Assembly (NCBI GenBank): GCA_903927945.1 | Contig: CAIYOZ010000164.1 | Location: 1 to 52,299, forward strand | Source: an uncultured Bacteroidales bacterium | GTDB taxonomy: Bacteria; Bacteroidota; Bacteroidia; Bacteroidales; Paludibacteraceae | DNA length: 52,299 nt | Direction of reading: 5' to 3' | Part shown: one piece after another, positions 1,238 to 49,975 of the stretch | Layout: the number at the start of each line of letters is the position of its first letter | Position numbering within the stretch: the stretch's first letter is position 1 | The notes under the pieces: generated by a model | What the model was told of the DNA's origin: nothing | Database searches by the model: none | What the model saw: the letters and a program-made list of their open reading frames with translations, nothing else | Program-made: the position numbers and the translations under genes

Positions 1238-1343
1238 AAGTTCATCGACAGTTAGTTCTTATTTAGATGTCTTATACATATAATAACCTATTAATGATAT
1301 AAGACATCTATGAGACATCTATAAGTAAACTAAGAGTGAACTA
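1238..1343. repeat. Palindromic 11-bp-unit intergenic element, copy A
   Basis: On the right arm four consecutive 11-mers end in CTA: 1300-1310, 1311-1321, 1322-1332 and 1333-1343. The left arm holds complementary units (TAGATGTCTTA at 1264-1274 and a relative at 1253-1263), so 12 bp AGATGTCTTATA/TATAAGACATCT pair perfectly around an AT-rich core containing ACCTATTA. The outer left arm is shifted by small indels. The layout matches copies B and C although the arm sequences are different. Confidence 0.75.
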
Positions 1344-4923: not shown

Positions 4924-7425
4924 ATGAAAAAGCTCAACTTGGTGTTTATCATGCTTGCCTTTTGTAGTTTCACGTTTGCGGTCAAGGAAGTTCGTAATGT
5001 GCAATCTTTCAATCAAGGCTGGAAATTTACGTTAGCCGACAGTACAATGAATGCCTCTTCAACGGGATACAACGATAACTCGTGGCGTACACTTAATCTG
5101 CCCCACGACTGGAGCATTGAATCTGATTTTAGTAAGGATTATCCGGCAACACCAGGAGGTGGAGCATTGCCCGGAGGGATAGGCTGGTACCGTAAATCGT
5201 TTACCGTGGATAAAGCCAATAAGGGTAAACATGTGTATATTGACTTCGACGGCGTGTACCGGAACAGTGAGGTATGGATTAACGGGACTTCGGTGGGGAA
5301 ACGTCCGTACGGGTATATTTCTTTCCGCTATGAACTGACTCCGTATATCAAGTTCGGTGAAAATAACGAGATTGCTGTGAAGGTGGACAATTCGAAACAA
5401 CCCAACTCCAGGTGGTATTCGGGTTCGGGTATCTTTCGCAACGTATGGCTTTCGATCCTGGATCAGGTGCATGTGGATTTGTGGGGAACGTATGTAACGA
5501 CCCCAAACGTCAATGCCGATAGTGCCGAAGTGGCGATACAAACGACGATACACAATGATGCCAAGTATTTAAGAACTATCCTGGTGGAACAATTGCTTTA
5601 CGATGCCGATGGAAAACTTGTCACCAAAACAAGAGGTTCGCTGTATGTTAATATCGGAATGTCCCATCAATACCTTCAAAAGCTCATCGTGAAAAAGCCA
5701 GTGTTGTGGGATATCGACCATCCGTATTTGTATAAACTGGTTACCAAGACTTATTATTTTGGCAGCCTGACGGATGAGTATGTTACTTCGGTGGGTATTC
5801 GTTCGTTTACGTTCGATGTGACGAAAGGATTTTTCCTGAACGGAAAACATGTAAAGATTAATGGAGTGTGCAATCACCACGATTTGGGTGCATTGGGTGC
5901 TGCGGTAAACGCCCGGGCGATAGAACGCCAGTTGCAAATACTGAAAGCGATGGGTTGTAACGGTATCCGCACTTCCCACAATCCGCCTGCTCCCGAATTA
6001 CTGGATTTGTGTGACAAAATGGGCTTTATCGTGATGGATGAAGCGTTTGATATGTGGTTGCAACATAAAACAAAGTATGATTATTCATTGGACTTCCCCG
6101 AATGGCATGTACGCGACCTGACCGATATGATTACCCGCGACAGGAACCACCCTTCCATTTTTATCTGGAGTATCGGAAACGAAGTACCTGAACAATGGGG
6201 AAATGCCAAGACGGAAGATATGGATTTGCAACAAGCCAATATCCTGATGAATAAAAAGAAAGAAATCGCTCAGGATGAAGTCAGTCAGGGTGGTTTGAGC
6301 AAAAACGCCTTGCTTACCCGCCATTTGGTGGATGTCACCAAGGCAGCTGATCCGACCCGTCCCGTTTCGGCAGCATGTAATGTGACCGATGACAACAATA
6401 ACCTGTTCAAATCGGAAGCACTGGATTTAATCGGATTCAATTATCACGAAAAAGAATTTCAGGCTATTACCGGTCATTTTCCGAAGACTCCGTTCTTTGT
6501 CAGTGAATCGGTTTCGGCCTTACAAACGCGTGGATTTTACATGATGCCTTCGGACAGTATGAATATCTGGCCTGAACGTTGGGATAAACCTTTCAGCAAT
6601 CCGTTGCAGAAATGTTCGGCTTATGATAACTGCCATGCTCCCTGGGGATCGACCCACGAAGCTACCTGGAAACTGGTCAAGAAATACGATCACGTGGCGG
6701 GACAATTTATCTGGACCGGGTTTGATTACCTGGGCGAACCGACACCGTATTGGTGGCCATCGCGCAGTTCATATTTCGGGATCATTGACCTGGCAGGATT
6801 CCCCAAGGATGTGTATTACATGTATCAAAGCGAATGGACGACAAAGGACGTGTTGTATATCTTCCCACACTGGAACTGGAAGGCAGGGCAGACCGTCGAT
6901 GTATGGGCGTATTACAACAATGCCGATGAAGTGGAACTATACCTGAACGGACAGTCGCTTGGAATACGCAGTAAAGCAGGAGATGACCTGCATGTCATGT
7001 GGCGCGTAGAGTACGCTCCCGGTACGCTGAAGGCTGTTTCACGCAAGAATGGTAAAGAAGTACTGTCCAGAGAAATTAAGACCGCCGGCGAGCCAGTAAG
7101 TATTCGCTTGAAGGCTGACCGCCCCACTGTTGCTGCTGATGGGAAAGATCTATCCTATGTGAGCGTCGAATTGCTGGATAAGGATGGAAATGCTTCCCCG
7201 GTAGCCGATCAGCTGGTGAAATTCAGCGTGGAGGGACCGGGTGCCGTTGTGGGTACCGATAATGGTGATCAGAACGATCATGTCTCGCTCAAGAAACCCG
7301 AACGTCACTTGTTTTATGGGAAGTGCCTGGCCATTGTCCAGAGTACATTCGTTGGTGGGAATATCGTGCTGAAGGCTTCGGTGGAAGGCTTGCCGGTACA
7401 GGGAATAACGATTGTGAGTAAATAA
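4924..7425 (+). CDS. GH2 beta-galactosidase-like glycoside hydrolase, secreted
   Basis: An 833-residue protein with signal peptide MKKLNLVFIMLAFCSFTFA. Order of domains: N-terminal sugar-binding jelly roll (about 25-200, with YDGVYRNSEVWING-like GH2 core and RWYSGSGIFRNVWL), immunoglobulin-like domain (about 205-310), TIM barrel (about 315-600), then C-terminal domains of the DUF4982 and Ig-like type. The acid/base is Glu420 in SIGNEVPEQ and the probable nucleophile is Glu528 in FVSESVS. GNGIRTSHNPPAPELLDLCD-type GH2 signature is present. In xyloglucan loci this family removes beta-1,2-galactose from the side chains, probably in the periplasm. It has its own promoter, is convergent with the GH5 operon, and shares a hairpin-rich 330-base gap with it. 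Beta-glucuronidase activity cannot be excluded. Confidence 0.88.
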   Translation: MKKLNLVFIMLAFCSFTFAVKEVRNVQSFNQGWKFTLADSTMNASSTGYNDNSWRTLNLPHDWSIESDFSKDYPATPGGGALPGGIGWYRKSFTVDKANKGKHVYIDFDGVYRNSEVWINGTSVGKRPYGYISFRYELTPYIKFGENNEIAVKVDNSKQPNSRWYSGSGIFRNVWLSILDQVHVDLWGTYVTTPNVNADSAEVAIQTTIHNDAKYLRTILVEQLLYDADGKLVTKTRGSLYVNIGMSHQYLQKLIVKKPVLWDIDHPYLYKLVTKTYYFGSLTDEYVTSVGIRSFTFDVTKGFFLNGKHVKINGVCNHHDLGALGAAVNARAIERQLQILKAMGCNGIRTSHNPPAPELLDLCDKMGFIVMDEAFDMWLQHKTKYDYSLDFPEWHVRDLTDMITRDRNHPSIFIWSIGNEVPEQWGNAKTEDMDLQQANILMNKKKEIAQDEVSQGGLSKNALLTRHLVDVTKAADPTRPVSAACNVTDDNNNLFKSEALDLIGFNYHEKEFQAITGHFPKTPFFVSESVSALQTRGFYMMPSDSMNIWPERWDKPFSNPLQKCSAYDNCHAPWGSTHEATWKLVKKYDHVAGQFIWTGFDYLGEPTPYWWPSRSSYFGIIDLAGFPKDVYYMYQSEWTTKDVLYIFPHWNWKAGQTVDVWAYYNNADEVELYLNGQSLGIRSKAGDDLHVMWRVEYAPGTLKAVSRKNGKEVLSREIKTAGEPVSIRLKADRPTVAADGKDLSYVSVELLDKDGNASPVADQLVKFSVEGPGAVVGTDNGDQNDHVSLKKPERHLFYGKCLAIVQSTFVGGNIVLKASVEGLPVQGITIVSK

Positions 7426-7484
7426 AATTAAGAGCTAAAAACCTTGAGGGAAAATCAATCAGTTCCGGGTGTTACGTTTCTGCC

Positions 7485-7529
7485 TTATTACCGGCCCTGT
7501 CGCGAATAGCGACGGGGTCGTGGTAATAA
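7485..7529. repeat. Dispersed hairpin repeat, copy 1
   Basis: Outer arms TTATTACC/GGTAATAA and inner arms CCCTGTCGC/GCGACGGGG enclose the loop GAATA. A second copy with the same TACCGRCCC-GTCG and GACGGG-TCGTGGT blocks lies at 24773-24811, so this is an interspersed repeat rather than only a terminator. Confidence 0.75.
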
Positions 7530-7535
7530 TTACGA

Positions 7536-7567
7536 ATCCCCTGATAAAACTGTATTTATCAGGGGAT
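7536..7567. terminator. Bidirectional terminator hairpin between GH2 and GH5
   Basis: ATCCCCTGATAAA (7536-7548) pairs with TTTATCAGGGGAT (7555-7567) around a 6-nt loop, followed by CTTTCC on the plus strand. Placement between convergent genes suits termination of both. Confidence 0.75.
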
Positions 7568-7758
7568 CTTTCCATAAAAAAACTAACAACTTTTCATTTC
7601 TATAAAAACTACGCAAACTAAACGCCTACTAATCAATAGCGATAGGTGTAAATGTAGCACTTATGCTATGCTCATTCAATGAAGACTCAACGCTTCGAAT
7701 AAGATAGAAGCATTCCATCCGCTCTGCTGCCATTTCCCGGGTTATCAATGCCAATGCT

Positions 7759-9450
7759 TTACAATCCGTTTGCACCTTGTATCAGGGCATTTAAGTTTTG
7801 CTGATCCAGTACCGTATTCTTCGTTCTATCGATTAATCCACCCGTATCCCAGAAAAAGGGTAACATTCCATTTGCAATTGCTTGTTTTACAATATATTTG
7901 TGGTAATACGCCCTTGACGCTAAATGAAGAGTTAATGCATCACCGGTTAAATTATCACGGCGCATGGCACCAAATTCACCCATTATAACCGGTATCCCCT
8001 TATTAACAAACTGTATCTTCATCATGTTGAAATAGGAATCAACAGTACTTTCTTCACCCCACGTGGGATTATGAGCTGTATCGGTTGTGGAGTGATAGTT
8101 TGCACCCCAGTAGTAGAACATATTGCCCCAGCTGGCATCGGCAGTCATACCACAAAAATTCCAGGGTGTATAGTAATGTATTTCAGCCATTAATTTATTC
8201 GCTATGTTGTCCGTAGGCATACCGGTCATGAGTTTATTTGTGGTAACAATATCGGTTGAGGGCCCCTGTACGACTAATGTACGATACGCATTTTTACCAC
8301 CTGTAGAGCGCACTGCATTGATAAAGGTTTGATGATACGACATCAATACGGTCATTTGTTCCGCTGTGGTGACAGCCGGTTCATTGGCACTGGCAAACAG
8401 GACATGTTCATCAAAATCACGCATCGTTACGGCAATTTGCTCCCAATAGGCTTTTTGTTTCGCATTGACCGCTACCTGTTTGGCTACCGTACAGTTGCTC
8501 TCGAGCCAGCCGTCATCCCAGTGGATATTAAGGATCACATACATATCGTTATCAACACAGTATTGTACTACTTGTTTAACCCTTGCCAGCCAACCGGGTT
8601 TTATGATCAGCGTGGCTTGATCCGCATATTGATCCCAGGAGCAGGGTAAACGAATGGCATTAAAGCCGCTTTGTTTTATTGCTTTAATCAGGTCATTGGT
8701 GATCATTGGATTTCCCCAAGCAGTTTCTCCTCCGGTAGCCTCCAGGGTATTGCCGATATTAATACCCATTTTGATTTTTTCAGCAAGTTGCACAGCTGTA
8801 CTGCTCATGCCGGTGGCATCGGGAGCGATGTAAAGATCTTTTCCTGCTTGAGTTACAGTGACTGTATCTTTCTCATTTCCGATGGTATAAATGATTAATC
8901 CGGTACGGGTAGCCACCTGGTTGTTTTCTGCAATGGTATAAGCTTGTTGAGTTTTGTCAACAGACACCGATTTCAACTTAATCCAATCGTTATTAGAGGC
9001 GAAAGTGAATGTGGTATCTGATGATTGGGTAGTGAGGTCTATTTCACCACCAACGGTTGACATTGTAAATTTATTCTGACTTAAAATGATATACTGAGAT
9101 GTTTTTTGGGTAACGGTTACCTCTTTTTTCAGCGATCCGGCAGTAAATGTTATCACAGCCTTACGTATGGATGGAGTCTTGTTTTGGCTTACCGATATTT
9201 TTATCTGGGCATTCCCTTTGGTTCCGGAAGTTGTGGAAAGTGTGCACCATGTATCAGAAACAGCAGCACTCCAATCCGAACTTGTTCCAAGCATCAGGAT
9301 ATTGTTATTGGCAGCTCCTGTAAATGTTATTTCCTGAAAAGACAAATCAATCTGAGGTTCAGGAGAAGTATCATTTTTGCACGAATAGCACACAAACATA
9401 ATCGCGATGGATGATACTAAAAGAATAATAAGTTTTGAAATTCGGATCAT
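7759..9450 (-). CDS. BACON-GH5 endoglucanase lipoprotein, likely endo-xyloglucanase
   Basis: A 563-residue surface lipoprotein: lipobox ending at the Cys of CYSCKN near residue 25, two tandem BACON domains (about 40-117 and 120-203, with SSDWSAAVSDTWCTLS and NNDWIKLK cores ending in VTVTQ), and a GH5 TIM barrel (about 215-560). Catalytic residues are acid/base Glu357 in SANEPAV and nucleophile Glu492 in IMGEFGAM. The KMGINIGNTLE start of the barrel is typical of GH5_4, the subfamily of surface endo-xyloglucanases in Bacteroides, which also carry a BACON domain. It would cut the glucan backbone outside the cell so that SusCD can import fragments. It is the last gene of the minus arm. Subfamily assignment is from motif memory, not a search. 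Confidence 0.9.
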   Translation of the reverse strand: MIRISKLIILLVSSIAIMFVCYSCKNDTSPEPQIDLSFQEITFTGAANNNILMLGTSSDWSAAVSDTWCTLSTTSGTKGNAQIKISVSQNKTPSIRKAVITFTAGSLKKEVTVTQKTSQYIILSQNKFTMSTVGGEIDLTTQSSDTTFTFASNNDWIKLKSVSVDKTQQAYTIAENNQVATRTGLIIYTIGNEKDTVTVTQAGKDLYIAPDATGMSSTAVQLAEKIKMGINIGNTLEATGGETAWGNPMITNDLIKAIKQSGFNAIRLPCSWDQYADQATLIIKPGWLARVKQVVQYCVDNDMYVILNIHWDDGWLESNCTVAKQVAVNAKQKAYWEQIAVTMRDFDEHVLFASANEPAVTTAEQMTVLMSYHQTFINAVRSTGGKNAYRTLVVQGPSTDIVTTNKLMTGMPTDNIANKLMAEIHYYTPWNFCGMTADASWGNMFYYWGANYHSTTDTAHNPTWGEESTVDSYFNMMKIQFVNKGIPVIMGEFGAMRRDNLTGDALTLHLASRAYYHKYIVKQAIANGMLPFFWDTGGLIDRTKNTVLDQQNLNALIQGANGL

Positions 9451-24137: not shown

Positions 24138-24404
24138 GGAGATCTAACTTTCCGTTTTCTGAGTTGTTTAATCCTGTTGTACTTCTGTTTTTTGCACTCC
24201 TGACATTTGCTTTAGGGTCTATCAATTGGGATTCGCGATTTCCAGTTCGCGGTCTTAATTCATTATCCAATACCAATTGAGATTCATGATCGTTTTTTGC
24301 AATGGAATAAATTCCATTGTTACAATATCAGTCGTTCCTATGGAACTCTTAGAAAAAAACGGGAGAGAATTGTTAGTTTAAACCCTTTTCCGGTATGATT
24401 TCTT

Positions 24405-24620
24405 CACTGCCCATTCGTTACCCAATCACTATGTGTTCTATACCGTGACTATGATAACCAAGGGATAACCAAGGGATAACCAAGGGATAACCCACATATA
24501 ACATATACTTATTTAGATATGGATTATCCCTTGGTCACTCCTGGATAATATCTGATTCAGCCATAGTTTGAATAAAAGACAGTGGCGAATAGGTAGTGAT
24601 TGGGTAGCGAATGGGCAGTG
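24405..24620. repeat. Palindromic 11-bp-unit intergenic element, copy B
   Basis: Outer arms 24405-24431 and 24594-24620 are inverted repeats with 26 of 27 positions matching. Inside, three exact CCAAGGGATAA 11-mers (24458-24468, 24469-24479, 24480-24490) face one complementary TTATCCCTTGG (24524-24534) across an AT-rich core with ATACTTATTTAGATAT. The outer arms also split into 11-mers (for example GTGATTGGGTA, GCGAATGGGCA). The design equals copies A and C, but the arms are unrelated in sequence. Confidence 0.85.
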
Positions 24621-24772
24621 GAGTGATCTAACGGAATGGAAAGGTGTCAGAAGATAGAAACAAGGAGCAGTCTGGAAAGGTGAAAGTGCAGGTCACTTTT
24701 GCTGGAAATGATGGAGGAATGAAGGACTCAATTTGGAGGCATTGAAGGGAAGACTTTATTTGGAGGGAACTT

Positions 24773-44793: not shown

Positions 44794-44863
44794 GAAATTC
44801 AGTGTCTGTTATTAAATTCTTATAGATTAAAAAAAATGTGTAAATGGAATGCGGGGAATATGT

Positions 44864-45025
44864 TTCTTCAAACTCTTCAAACTCTCCAAACTCTCCAAAC
44901 CCTTCAAACCCTTCAAACCCTTCAAACCCCAAACCTTTCAAACTCTTTAAACTCTTCCAACACGGAACACGGAACACGGAACCTTGAACGCTGAACTCTT
45001 CAAACCTGTCAAACTCTTCAAACTT
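44864..45025. repeat. 9-bp minisatellite with 7-bp interruption
   Basis: About ten degenerate copies of TTCAAACTC/TTCAAACCC (44864-44955) are followed by 7-bp copies of ACACGGA (about 44960-44982) and then further TTCAAAC units to 45025. It lies between the GH37 stop and the GH38 start. A long frame across it encodes only FEGFEGFEE-type repeats and is not believed to be a gene. Confidence 0.85.
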
Positions 45026-49721: not shown

Positions 49722-49746
49722 TTCTTTATGCTTAACTTTACTTGAG

Positions 49747-49975
49747 CCAATGTTCAACCAATGTTCTGCCATAGTTCAACCAATGTTCAGCCAATCTGGT
49801 GGAATAGATATCATATAGATACCATATAGATACGATATATTTAAATAGGTATATCGTATCTAAATTAAAATTAAATTAGAACTGACTCAGATCTGAAATA
49901 TGGCAATGGGAACATATTGGCTGAACATTGGTTGAACTATGGCAGAAGTATGGCTAAGCTATGGTTAAACTGTGG
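49747..49975. repeat. Palindromic 11-bp-unit intergenic element, copy C
   Basis: The left arm has five 11-mer phases (CCAATGTTCAA, CCAATGTTCTG, CCATAGTTCAA, CCAATGTTCAG, CCAAT; 49747-49795) and the right arm their complements (49916-49975), with a perfect 32-bp inverted repeat (49764-49795 with 49916-49947). Inside are three 11-mers ATAGATAYCAT-like (49804-49836), then a core with TTTAAATAGGTATAT whose complement reads ATACCTATTTAAA, close to the cores of copies A and B. Confidence 0.9.

Follow-up and report, generated by a model that had tools for sequence, protein, structure and literature searches.

The 52,299-nt stretch of DNA analysed here (the window), contig C164 of the source genome G000, a 4.47-Mb MAG in 450 contigs, carries three copies of a dispersed element. 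Its 11-bp units form inner arrays that mirror each other across a dyad core, and often a further set of 11-bp units makes up outer arms. Such elements are abundant in a small clade of uncultured species, taken to be Bacteroidales. The family is real, nearly clade-limited and unusual, and its architecture is new within the known palindromic, foldback-like interspersed elements. Our preferred account, to which we give about an even chance, is that these are clade-limited, foldback/MITE-like, non-coding interspersed palindromic elements whose arms would be copied at the DNA level and in which newer elements may nest in older ones; their mobility we infer from sequence comparison. Interspersed repeats are usually found by similarity. 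In this family the sequence changes but the architecture persists, often at the same locus, so most members escape a similarity search.

A preliminary description had reported three intergenic sites with one mirrored architecture, and the sequence, TRF and arm complementarity confirm it. At 49747-49975 inward 11-bp units lead to an AT-rich core, from which complementary 11-bp units run outward, as had been described. The parts of copies C, B and A are:

49747-49798, plus strand: left outer arm of copy C, ATGTTCAACCA-type 11-bp units (TRF period 11, 4.5 copies at 49747-49795)
49804-49839, plus strand: left inner array of copy C, ATACCATATAG-type 11-bp units (TRF period 11, 3.3 copies)
49840-49849, no strand: dyad core of copy C, TTTAAATAGG, between arms 49824-49839 and 49850-49865, which are 94% complementary
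49850-49865, minus strand: right inner arm of copy C, complementing the innermost left units
49913-49969, minus strand: right outer arm of copy C, 11-bp units complementing the left outer arm
24397-24438, plus strand: left outer arm of copy B, 42 nt, 83% complementary to 24587-24628, best stretch 29/33
24453-24492, plus strand: left inner array of copy B, 3.6 units of GATAACCAAGG (TRF period 11, 100% match)
24508-24517, no strand: dyad core of copy B, CTTATTTAGA, read from the sequence
24518-24549, minus strand: right inner array of copy B (24513-24549 is 76% complementary to 24465-24501)
24587-24628, minus strand: right outer arm of copy B, from its complementarity to the left outer arm
1264-1285, plus strand: left arm of copy A, 22 nt, 82% complementary to 1289-1310, weak by shuffle (40/500)
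1285-1296, no strand: dyad core of copy A, AACCTATTAATG, read from the sequence
1298-1325, minus strand: right array of copy A, 2.5 units of TATAAGACATC (TRF period 11)

The outer arms of copy C (49742-49798 and 49913-49969) are 81% complementary, and their best stretch, 49763-49795 against 49916-49948, matches at 32 of 33 positions, in agreement with the perfect 32-bp inverted repeat claimed earlier. On the right side of copy B, TRF also finds period 11 at 24585-24615 (2.8 copies). By eye, the cores conform to a 10-bp near-palindrome, YCTAWWTAGG (TTTAAATAGG in C, CTTATTTAGA in B and CCTATTAATG in A), a better form than the one first given; the claim of a dyad core is supported. Cores resembling that of copy B occur in the related genome G007 (TTTATATAAA, TTTACATAGA and TTTATATAGA at loci L249, L254 and L257). 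Pfam places GH31 and GH3 genes in the vicinity of the copies, together with a hybrid two-component regulator. The left neighbour of copy B, at 24289-24347 of the window, holds the palindrome AATGGAATAAATTCCATT, matches seven places in the related genome G005 and may be a separate repeat family.

Each copy was compared with 500 dinucleotide shuffles, with period-11 similarity scored out of 33 and inverted repeats out of 22. The period-11 scores of copies A, B and C (26, 30 and 26) were reached by 0/500 shuffles in all three cases, and a score of at least 25 appeared in 0/30 shuffles of the whole window. Inverted-repeat scores of 21 for B and 22 for C were likewise reached by 0/500 shuffles; 40/500 shuffles reached the score of 18 for A, so its palindrome is weak, and the mirrored arms claimed for all three sites are strong at B and C only. 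Chance, an assembly artefact or plain minisatellites might be entertained for a MAG of 450 contigs that also contains period-7 and period-8 arrays. Against this stand the shuffle results, a palindromy specific to period 11 and the occurrence of same-locus elements in separately assembled relatives; since the shuffles and the common loci already refute chance and artefact, we consider this explanation extremely improbable.

Many more copies exist in G000, so the refuting outcome named in the preliminary description, a lack of further copies, does not hold. They were studied in a sample of 61 stretches (0.57 Mb including the window), and copy numbers per genome are known through pattern counts and sample densities. 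The sample is biased, 13 of the first 20 contigs having been picked for BLAST hits and 40 others by contig number in steps of about 10, and parts of it are masked as N (17,815 in the 40 numbered contigs, and all of L024). Of its 19 period-11 arrays, 17 are matched by an inverted partner (no more than 200 bp away, at least 15 of 18 positions matching), and both partnerless arrays lie at contig ends (L075, L089). Partners accompany 4/16 arrays of period 7, 2/18 of period 8, 1/8 of period 9 and 0/1 of period 12; among longer periods the counts are 1/13 for 16, 2/9 for 21 and 0/9 for 24. A simple minisatellite is ruled out by palindromy tied to this one period. The 40 number-chosen G000 contigs yielded 8 sites at the cut used for the 19 arrays, and G005 yielded 17 in 447 kb at cut 24. 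A two-unit TTACATA pattern has 21 exact matches in G000 and none for the reversed control, or 96 versus 23 when two mismatches are allowed. A similarity search with copy C found one strong partner in its own genome.

The contig-end elements are at L075:19-77 and L089:14132-14187; palindromes at contig ends may break assembly. One-way arrays of periods 7, 8 and 9, for example of AACCAATT and CTATTAA types, are also numerous in G000 and G005, in G000 mostly lacking inverted partners:

44857-45024 of the window: one-way period 7/8/9 array
L012:1536-1796: one-way period 7/8/9 array
L018:5058-5321: one-way period 7/8/9 array
L074:3649-3950: one-way period 7/8/9 array

The two zones of the element obey different rules. 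Inner arrays were analysed in 47 centred elements (24 from G000, 16 from G005 and 7 from G007; 9 of 56 were dropped, their dyads judged wrong or weak). Identity within an arm was 0.69 at lag 11 and 0.26-0.34 at lags 9, 10, 12 and 13. Mirror-register complementarity at offsets 16-49 from the dyad was 0.626, versus 0.622 when shifted by one unit (p = 0.80). Beside the dyad (offset 5-27) register pairing was 0.768 against 0.613 and 0.706 one unit out, the dyad having been fitted to maximise this pairing. Away from the dyad, in-register pairing is thus no better than shifted pairing, and what is mirrored in the inner arrays is a phased row of one unit rather than a base-by-base stem. The phase itself is nearly constant: the GGGTT-to-AACCC distance is 20 bp in 16 of 19 elements with both motifs (31, 31 and 11 in the others), the TTACATA-to-TATGTAA distance is 10 bp in 12 of 14 (21 and 21 in the others), and most departures amount to one unit.

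Outer arms, by comparison, pair strictly. In 25 hand-listed elements (24 from G000, one from G005) the best 33-bp pair matched at a median of 30/33 positions; when the arms were offset by 11 or 22, the better offset reached a median of 21, the arm pair being the best of many and so favoured over the shifted values. Outer arms of different copies have a median identity of 48%, and the earlier statement that arms are alike within copies and unlike between them is accordingly sound. Poor outer arms (21-24 of 33) occur in 5 of the 25, and TTCGTGG arms are so strongly periodic that a one-unit shift matches nearly as well (up to 30/33). Mismatches were typed in 20 of the 25 arm pairs, with the strand set by eye; over 660 positions, 28 of 49 are transversions, 15 are transitions compatible with wobble pairing on the chosen strand and 6 are the opposite-strand transitions.

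These data bear on a role as a structured RNA, in which selection would act on a transcript of the element folded into a long hairpin, each unit making up one A-form turn. Such a role would accommodate the strict pairing of outer arms, the large folding energies (which any palindrome has), the better register pairing beside the dyad, itself chosen to maximise it, and the excess of wobble-compatible changes on a strand chosen by the analyst. It would not predict that inner arrays farther out gain nothing from in-register pairing over a one-unit shift, that most outer mismatches are transversions, or that elements often occupy divergent gaps, and Rfam gave no match at gathering score within the window. 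The proposal that RNA structure accounts for the arms is therefore disfavoured, and we regard it as quite unlikely. We also reject an intrinsic terminator, on gene context and because copies A, B and C have no terminator-like site (a GC-rich stem with a T run after it) around them.

In G000, elements of one type are found inside those of another. The TTACATA inner cassette starts with GA(C/T) before an RTTACATA-like unit, ends with TTTAT or similar, and measures 113-132 bp depending on the cut (121 in 7 of the 14 copies kept; L044, L064 and the second L028 row were left out, their ends being wrong). Outer arms of CCTTTG, CTTAGTAA or TTCGTGG type surround it, the junctions (GAC...TTTAT) are consistent, and the CCTTTG and CTTAGTAA arms usually adjoin it at CTTTA and TAAAG. 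This nesting is the best evidence that elements may be assembled from modules or inserted into one another. TTTA flanks the cassette on both sides in 7 of the 14 copies, which is compatible with a target-site duplication or with part of a palindrome. None of 20 palindromes in the sampled G000 sequence was an empty outer palindrome, and relatives, whose gaps are otherwise diverged, showed no empty site that was clean and bore a target duplication.

Sister species show how the family changes in place. At five of the five loci where an element in G000 could be followed by both flanks to a gap in G005, G005 has an element as well:

L080 in G000, L184 in G005
L061 in G000, L187 in G005
L016 in G000, L189 in G005 (counted by eye: period score 20, cut 22)
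L009 in G000, L195 in G005 (matched across two separate sequence pieces; outside the strict gap table)
copy C in G000, L234 in G005

Elements are also present in both genomes at L013/L192, where one flank is common and the other, on the right, is about 9 kb distant in G005. The unit sequences differ in every G000/G005 locus pair. At L080/L184 the core AGGTYTACCTATC is kept, with GGGTTGCGTTA units in G000 versus GGGTTCATTGA in G005; the copy C locus has GGGGGTTGGCT units in G005 and AGGGTTCAGTT units in G007, where one flank was traced. In G063 no element lies beside the same gene, but the other neighbour differs. Locus L249 of G007 aligns by sequence with copy B (67% over 416 bp, reaching 38 bp past the left and 146 bp past the right outer arm), and has a similar core, changed units and outer arms each 11 bp shorter. 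G007 has no elements at the L009 and L080 loci.

Among other syntenic gaps, one (window 7424-7772) has an element in G005 only, and 18 have an element in neither genome by the cut. The resulting table (5, 0, 1, 18) gives a Fisher p of 1.4e-4, and the strict cut (3, 1, 1, 18) a p of 0.009. With only G000 gaps of at least 250 bp (5, 0, 1, 2) the excess is non-significant (p = 0.11), so gap length may explain part of the sharing. Synteny with G005 is broken at copy A and at the second flank of copy B, which are therefore not comparable there. Loci shared between sisters with other units lend support to the earlier idea that arms are rewritten together, and suggest mobile or self-rewriting DNA as opposed to an ordinary gene-control hairpin.

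Gene context raises a different possibility. No element of 29 has its midpoint in an ORF of at least 90 aa, and the 24 with both neighbours lie in 9 divergent, 13 tandem and 2 convergent gaps; the 206 gaps overall comprise 17 divergent, 167 tandem and 22 convergent (6.0, 27.6 and 4.0 of 37.6 kb). The divergent bias also fits a regulatory role, and to that extent it speaks against mobile elements. The elements might be cis-acting arrays on which a head-to-tail oligomerising DNA-binding protein coats both arms from the dyad and regulates or insulates the flanking genes, its specificity drifting between species and the sites following. OmpR/PhoB-type regulators form head-to-tail oligomers on 7-bp motifs with 4-bp spacers. 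PhoB/PhoP-type operators have 7-bp direct-repeat motifs and a 4-bp spacer, giving an 11-bp step; they are described as dimer sites, whereas an arm of the present elements has up to about six units, inverted about a core and differing in sequence (PMC4832192). The nearly fixed dyad phase and the five common loci speak for a binding array. Conserved and variable positions within units are clustered (7-versus-4 contrast 0.255, 0.222 when permuted, p = 3e-4, over 102 non-independent arrays), but that effect is small. Unit sequences vary widely inside one genome, sisters would be expected to have the regulator's motif in common, and the strict pairing of the best outer arms is not needed by a one-sided binding row. 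A protein-binding array is nonetheless a serious rival to mobile elements, and one that we hold to be possible if somewhat unlikely.

The family is narrowly distributed. RGGGTTN5RGGGTTN5RGGGTT matches 48 times in G000, 217 in G005 and 220 in G007, and not at all in the other 45 same-genus genomes; the reversed GGGTT control has no matches in these three and one in G002. A one-gene tree of 22 genomes needs a single change to account for the three (support 56/74; 55% of bootstrap trees), and their clustering is weakly supported. Across 393 genomes of the order, the three-unit GGGTT pattern matches five, G000 and four with 1-4 matches each, of which G304 and G315 have equally many control matches. 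The three-unit TTACATA pattern matches 2 of the 393, G000 and G308, and the two-unit pattern 2 of 60, G000 and G035. The G035 site (L113:10725-10840) lies outside the three-species clade and looks like a mirrored array, of TTACATATATG units, so the clade limit is not absolute. A three-unit pattern also matched seven contigs of other named records. Core-region matches to A, B and C are each dispersed in G007, and those to A and B in G005 too; the copy A region 1249-1353 matches 17 times in G005 and 7 times in G007. One element was searched against each type of replicon, that at L012 against phages and copy C against plasmids, and neither matched.

The G308 match is a one-way array that resembles plasmid iterons: G308 belongs to another family, and its site (L270:1500-1616) consists of about ten 11-bp TATGTAATGAT units in one direction beside GATACAA-type repeats. 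A different repeat in G007, at L236:120-360 and near the 3' end of L264, ends in an inverted pair, TTCTACTTTAC...GTAAAGTAGAA, and has TAGTTCACA repeats inside; it is apparently not phased at 11 bp.

If the elements are mobile, a candidate source of activity is a RAYT (REP-associated tyrosine transposase) acting on REPIN-like elements. A Y1_Tnp (PF01797) search gave six hits in G000 and found genes in 9 of 10 genomes, and we take the proteins encoded on C375, C234 and C355 of G000 to be RAYT-like from their Y1_Tnp matches and characteristic motifs. Three closely similar RAYT-like proteins of G000 with an MTNHMHMIVG motif are encoded at L028:2974-3405, L283:1542-3158 and L284:1545-2075, the L283 copy being fused in frame with another ORF. 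An 11-bp element lies within 1.5 kb of two of the three genes (L028, L284), but the L283 and L284 copies are flanked by a different palindrome, of GGGATTTGTAATCC type by eye, and three other Y1 loci (L280-L282) have no element. Moreover, Y1 genes are also present in relatives without GGGTT elements, and the arms lack a common REP sequence (between-copy median 0.48, 25 elements). Mobilisation by a RAYT seems unlikely, and the Y1_Tnp search of 10 genomes tied no transposase to the elements.

For the foldback-like elements that we favour, we propose that arms would stay complementary through DNA-level copying, by template switching or by conversion between arms, and that whole units would slip within an arm. 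Transposition or ectopic conversion could disperse the elements, and younger copies might enter or overwrite resident palindromes, so that the same gaps are reused. The 11-bp step would reflect the footprint of a bound protein, which may be the mobilising enzyme itself, arranged as two inverted head-to-tail rows outward from the dyad. Replication template switching is described as making and repairing inverted repeats (PMC8794818) and as homogenising their arms (PMC8604942), and PMC3315005 provides background to such a mechanism. Homology-driven conversion alone is opposed by the copy C locus, which holds visibly different types in different species.

A bolder formulation, which we put forward as doubtful, is that the heritable traits are the locus, the dyad and the 11-bp phase, not the sequence: units would be overwritten genome-wide in a species-specific way, by nesting and arm-to-arm copying or by a co-evolving row-forming protein, with positions kept. 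In the literature searched, as far as its accessible text goes, no bacterial element inheriting locus, dyad and phase in place of sequence turned up, and the 11-bp mirrored family is absent among the titles and abstract beginnings listed by a full-text search, mostly of papers outside subscription. As a natural test system, the family lends itself to the study of template copying from arm to arm, of how stable palindromes are in bacteria and of how mobile DNA reuses intergenic sites.

Known systems share parts of this architecture. Porphyromonas gingivalis belongs to the same bacterial order as the host of the elements. Its BrickBuilt MITE is likewise intergenic, with spacerless tandem units whose number varies at loci shared between strains; it has a 23-nt unit and a conserved leader and tail, whereas the elements here have mirrored 11-bp units and no conserved outer ends (PMC4596501). 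Of the features of a MITE of the BrickBuilt kind, neither terminal inverted repeats conserved between copies nor a 23-nt unit is found. REPs and REPINs are also extragenic inverted repeats in many copies, non-autonomous and predicted to form hairpins, but have a conserved REP sequence and a RAYT, whereas our elements have no common arm sequence and at most a putative link to a RAYT (PMC3116915). REPs are described as insertion hot spots, and insertion sequences that target REP palindromes offer a precedent for entry into resident palindromes of the kind proposed for the nested cassettes; those insertion sequences carry a transposase gene, whereas the cassette is non-coding (PMC1525189). In form the elements resemble Foldback and Galileo of Drosophila, which have long inverted arms of tandem repeats with repeat number changing within arms, as the elements here do. 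The repetitive TIRs of Galileo evolve through the gain and loss of tandem copies and may attract conversion; foldback arms are proposed to attract recombination or conversion, and their repeats to act as extra transposase sites (PMC3573991). The tandem repeat of Galileo is about 210 bp, against 11-bp units here, and the present elements are bacterial, roughly 100-330 bp long, and built around a core dyad with nested cassettes (PMC3573991).
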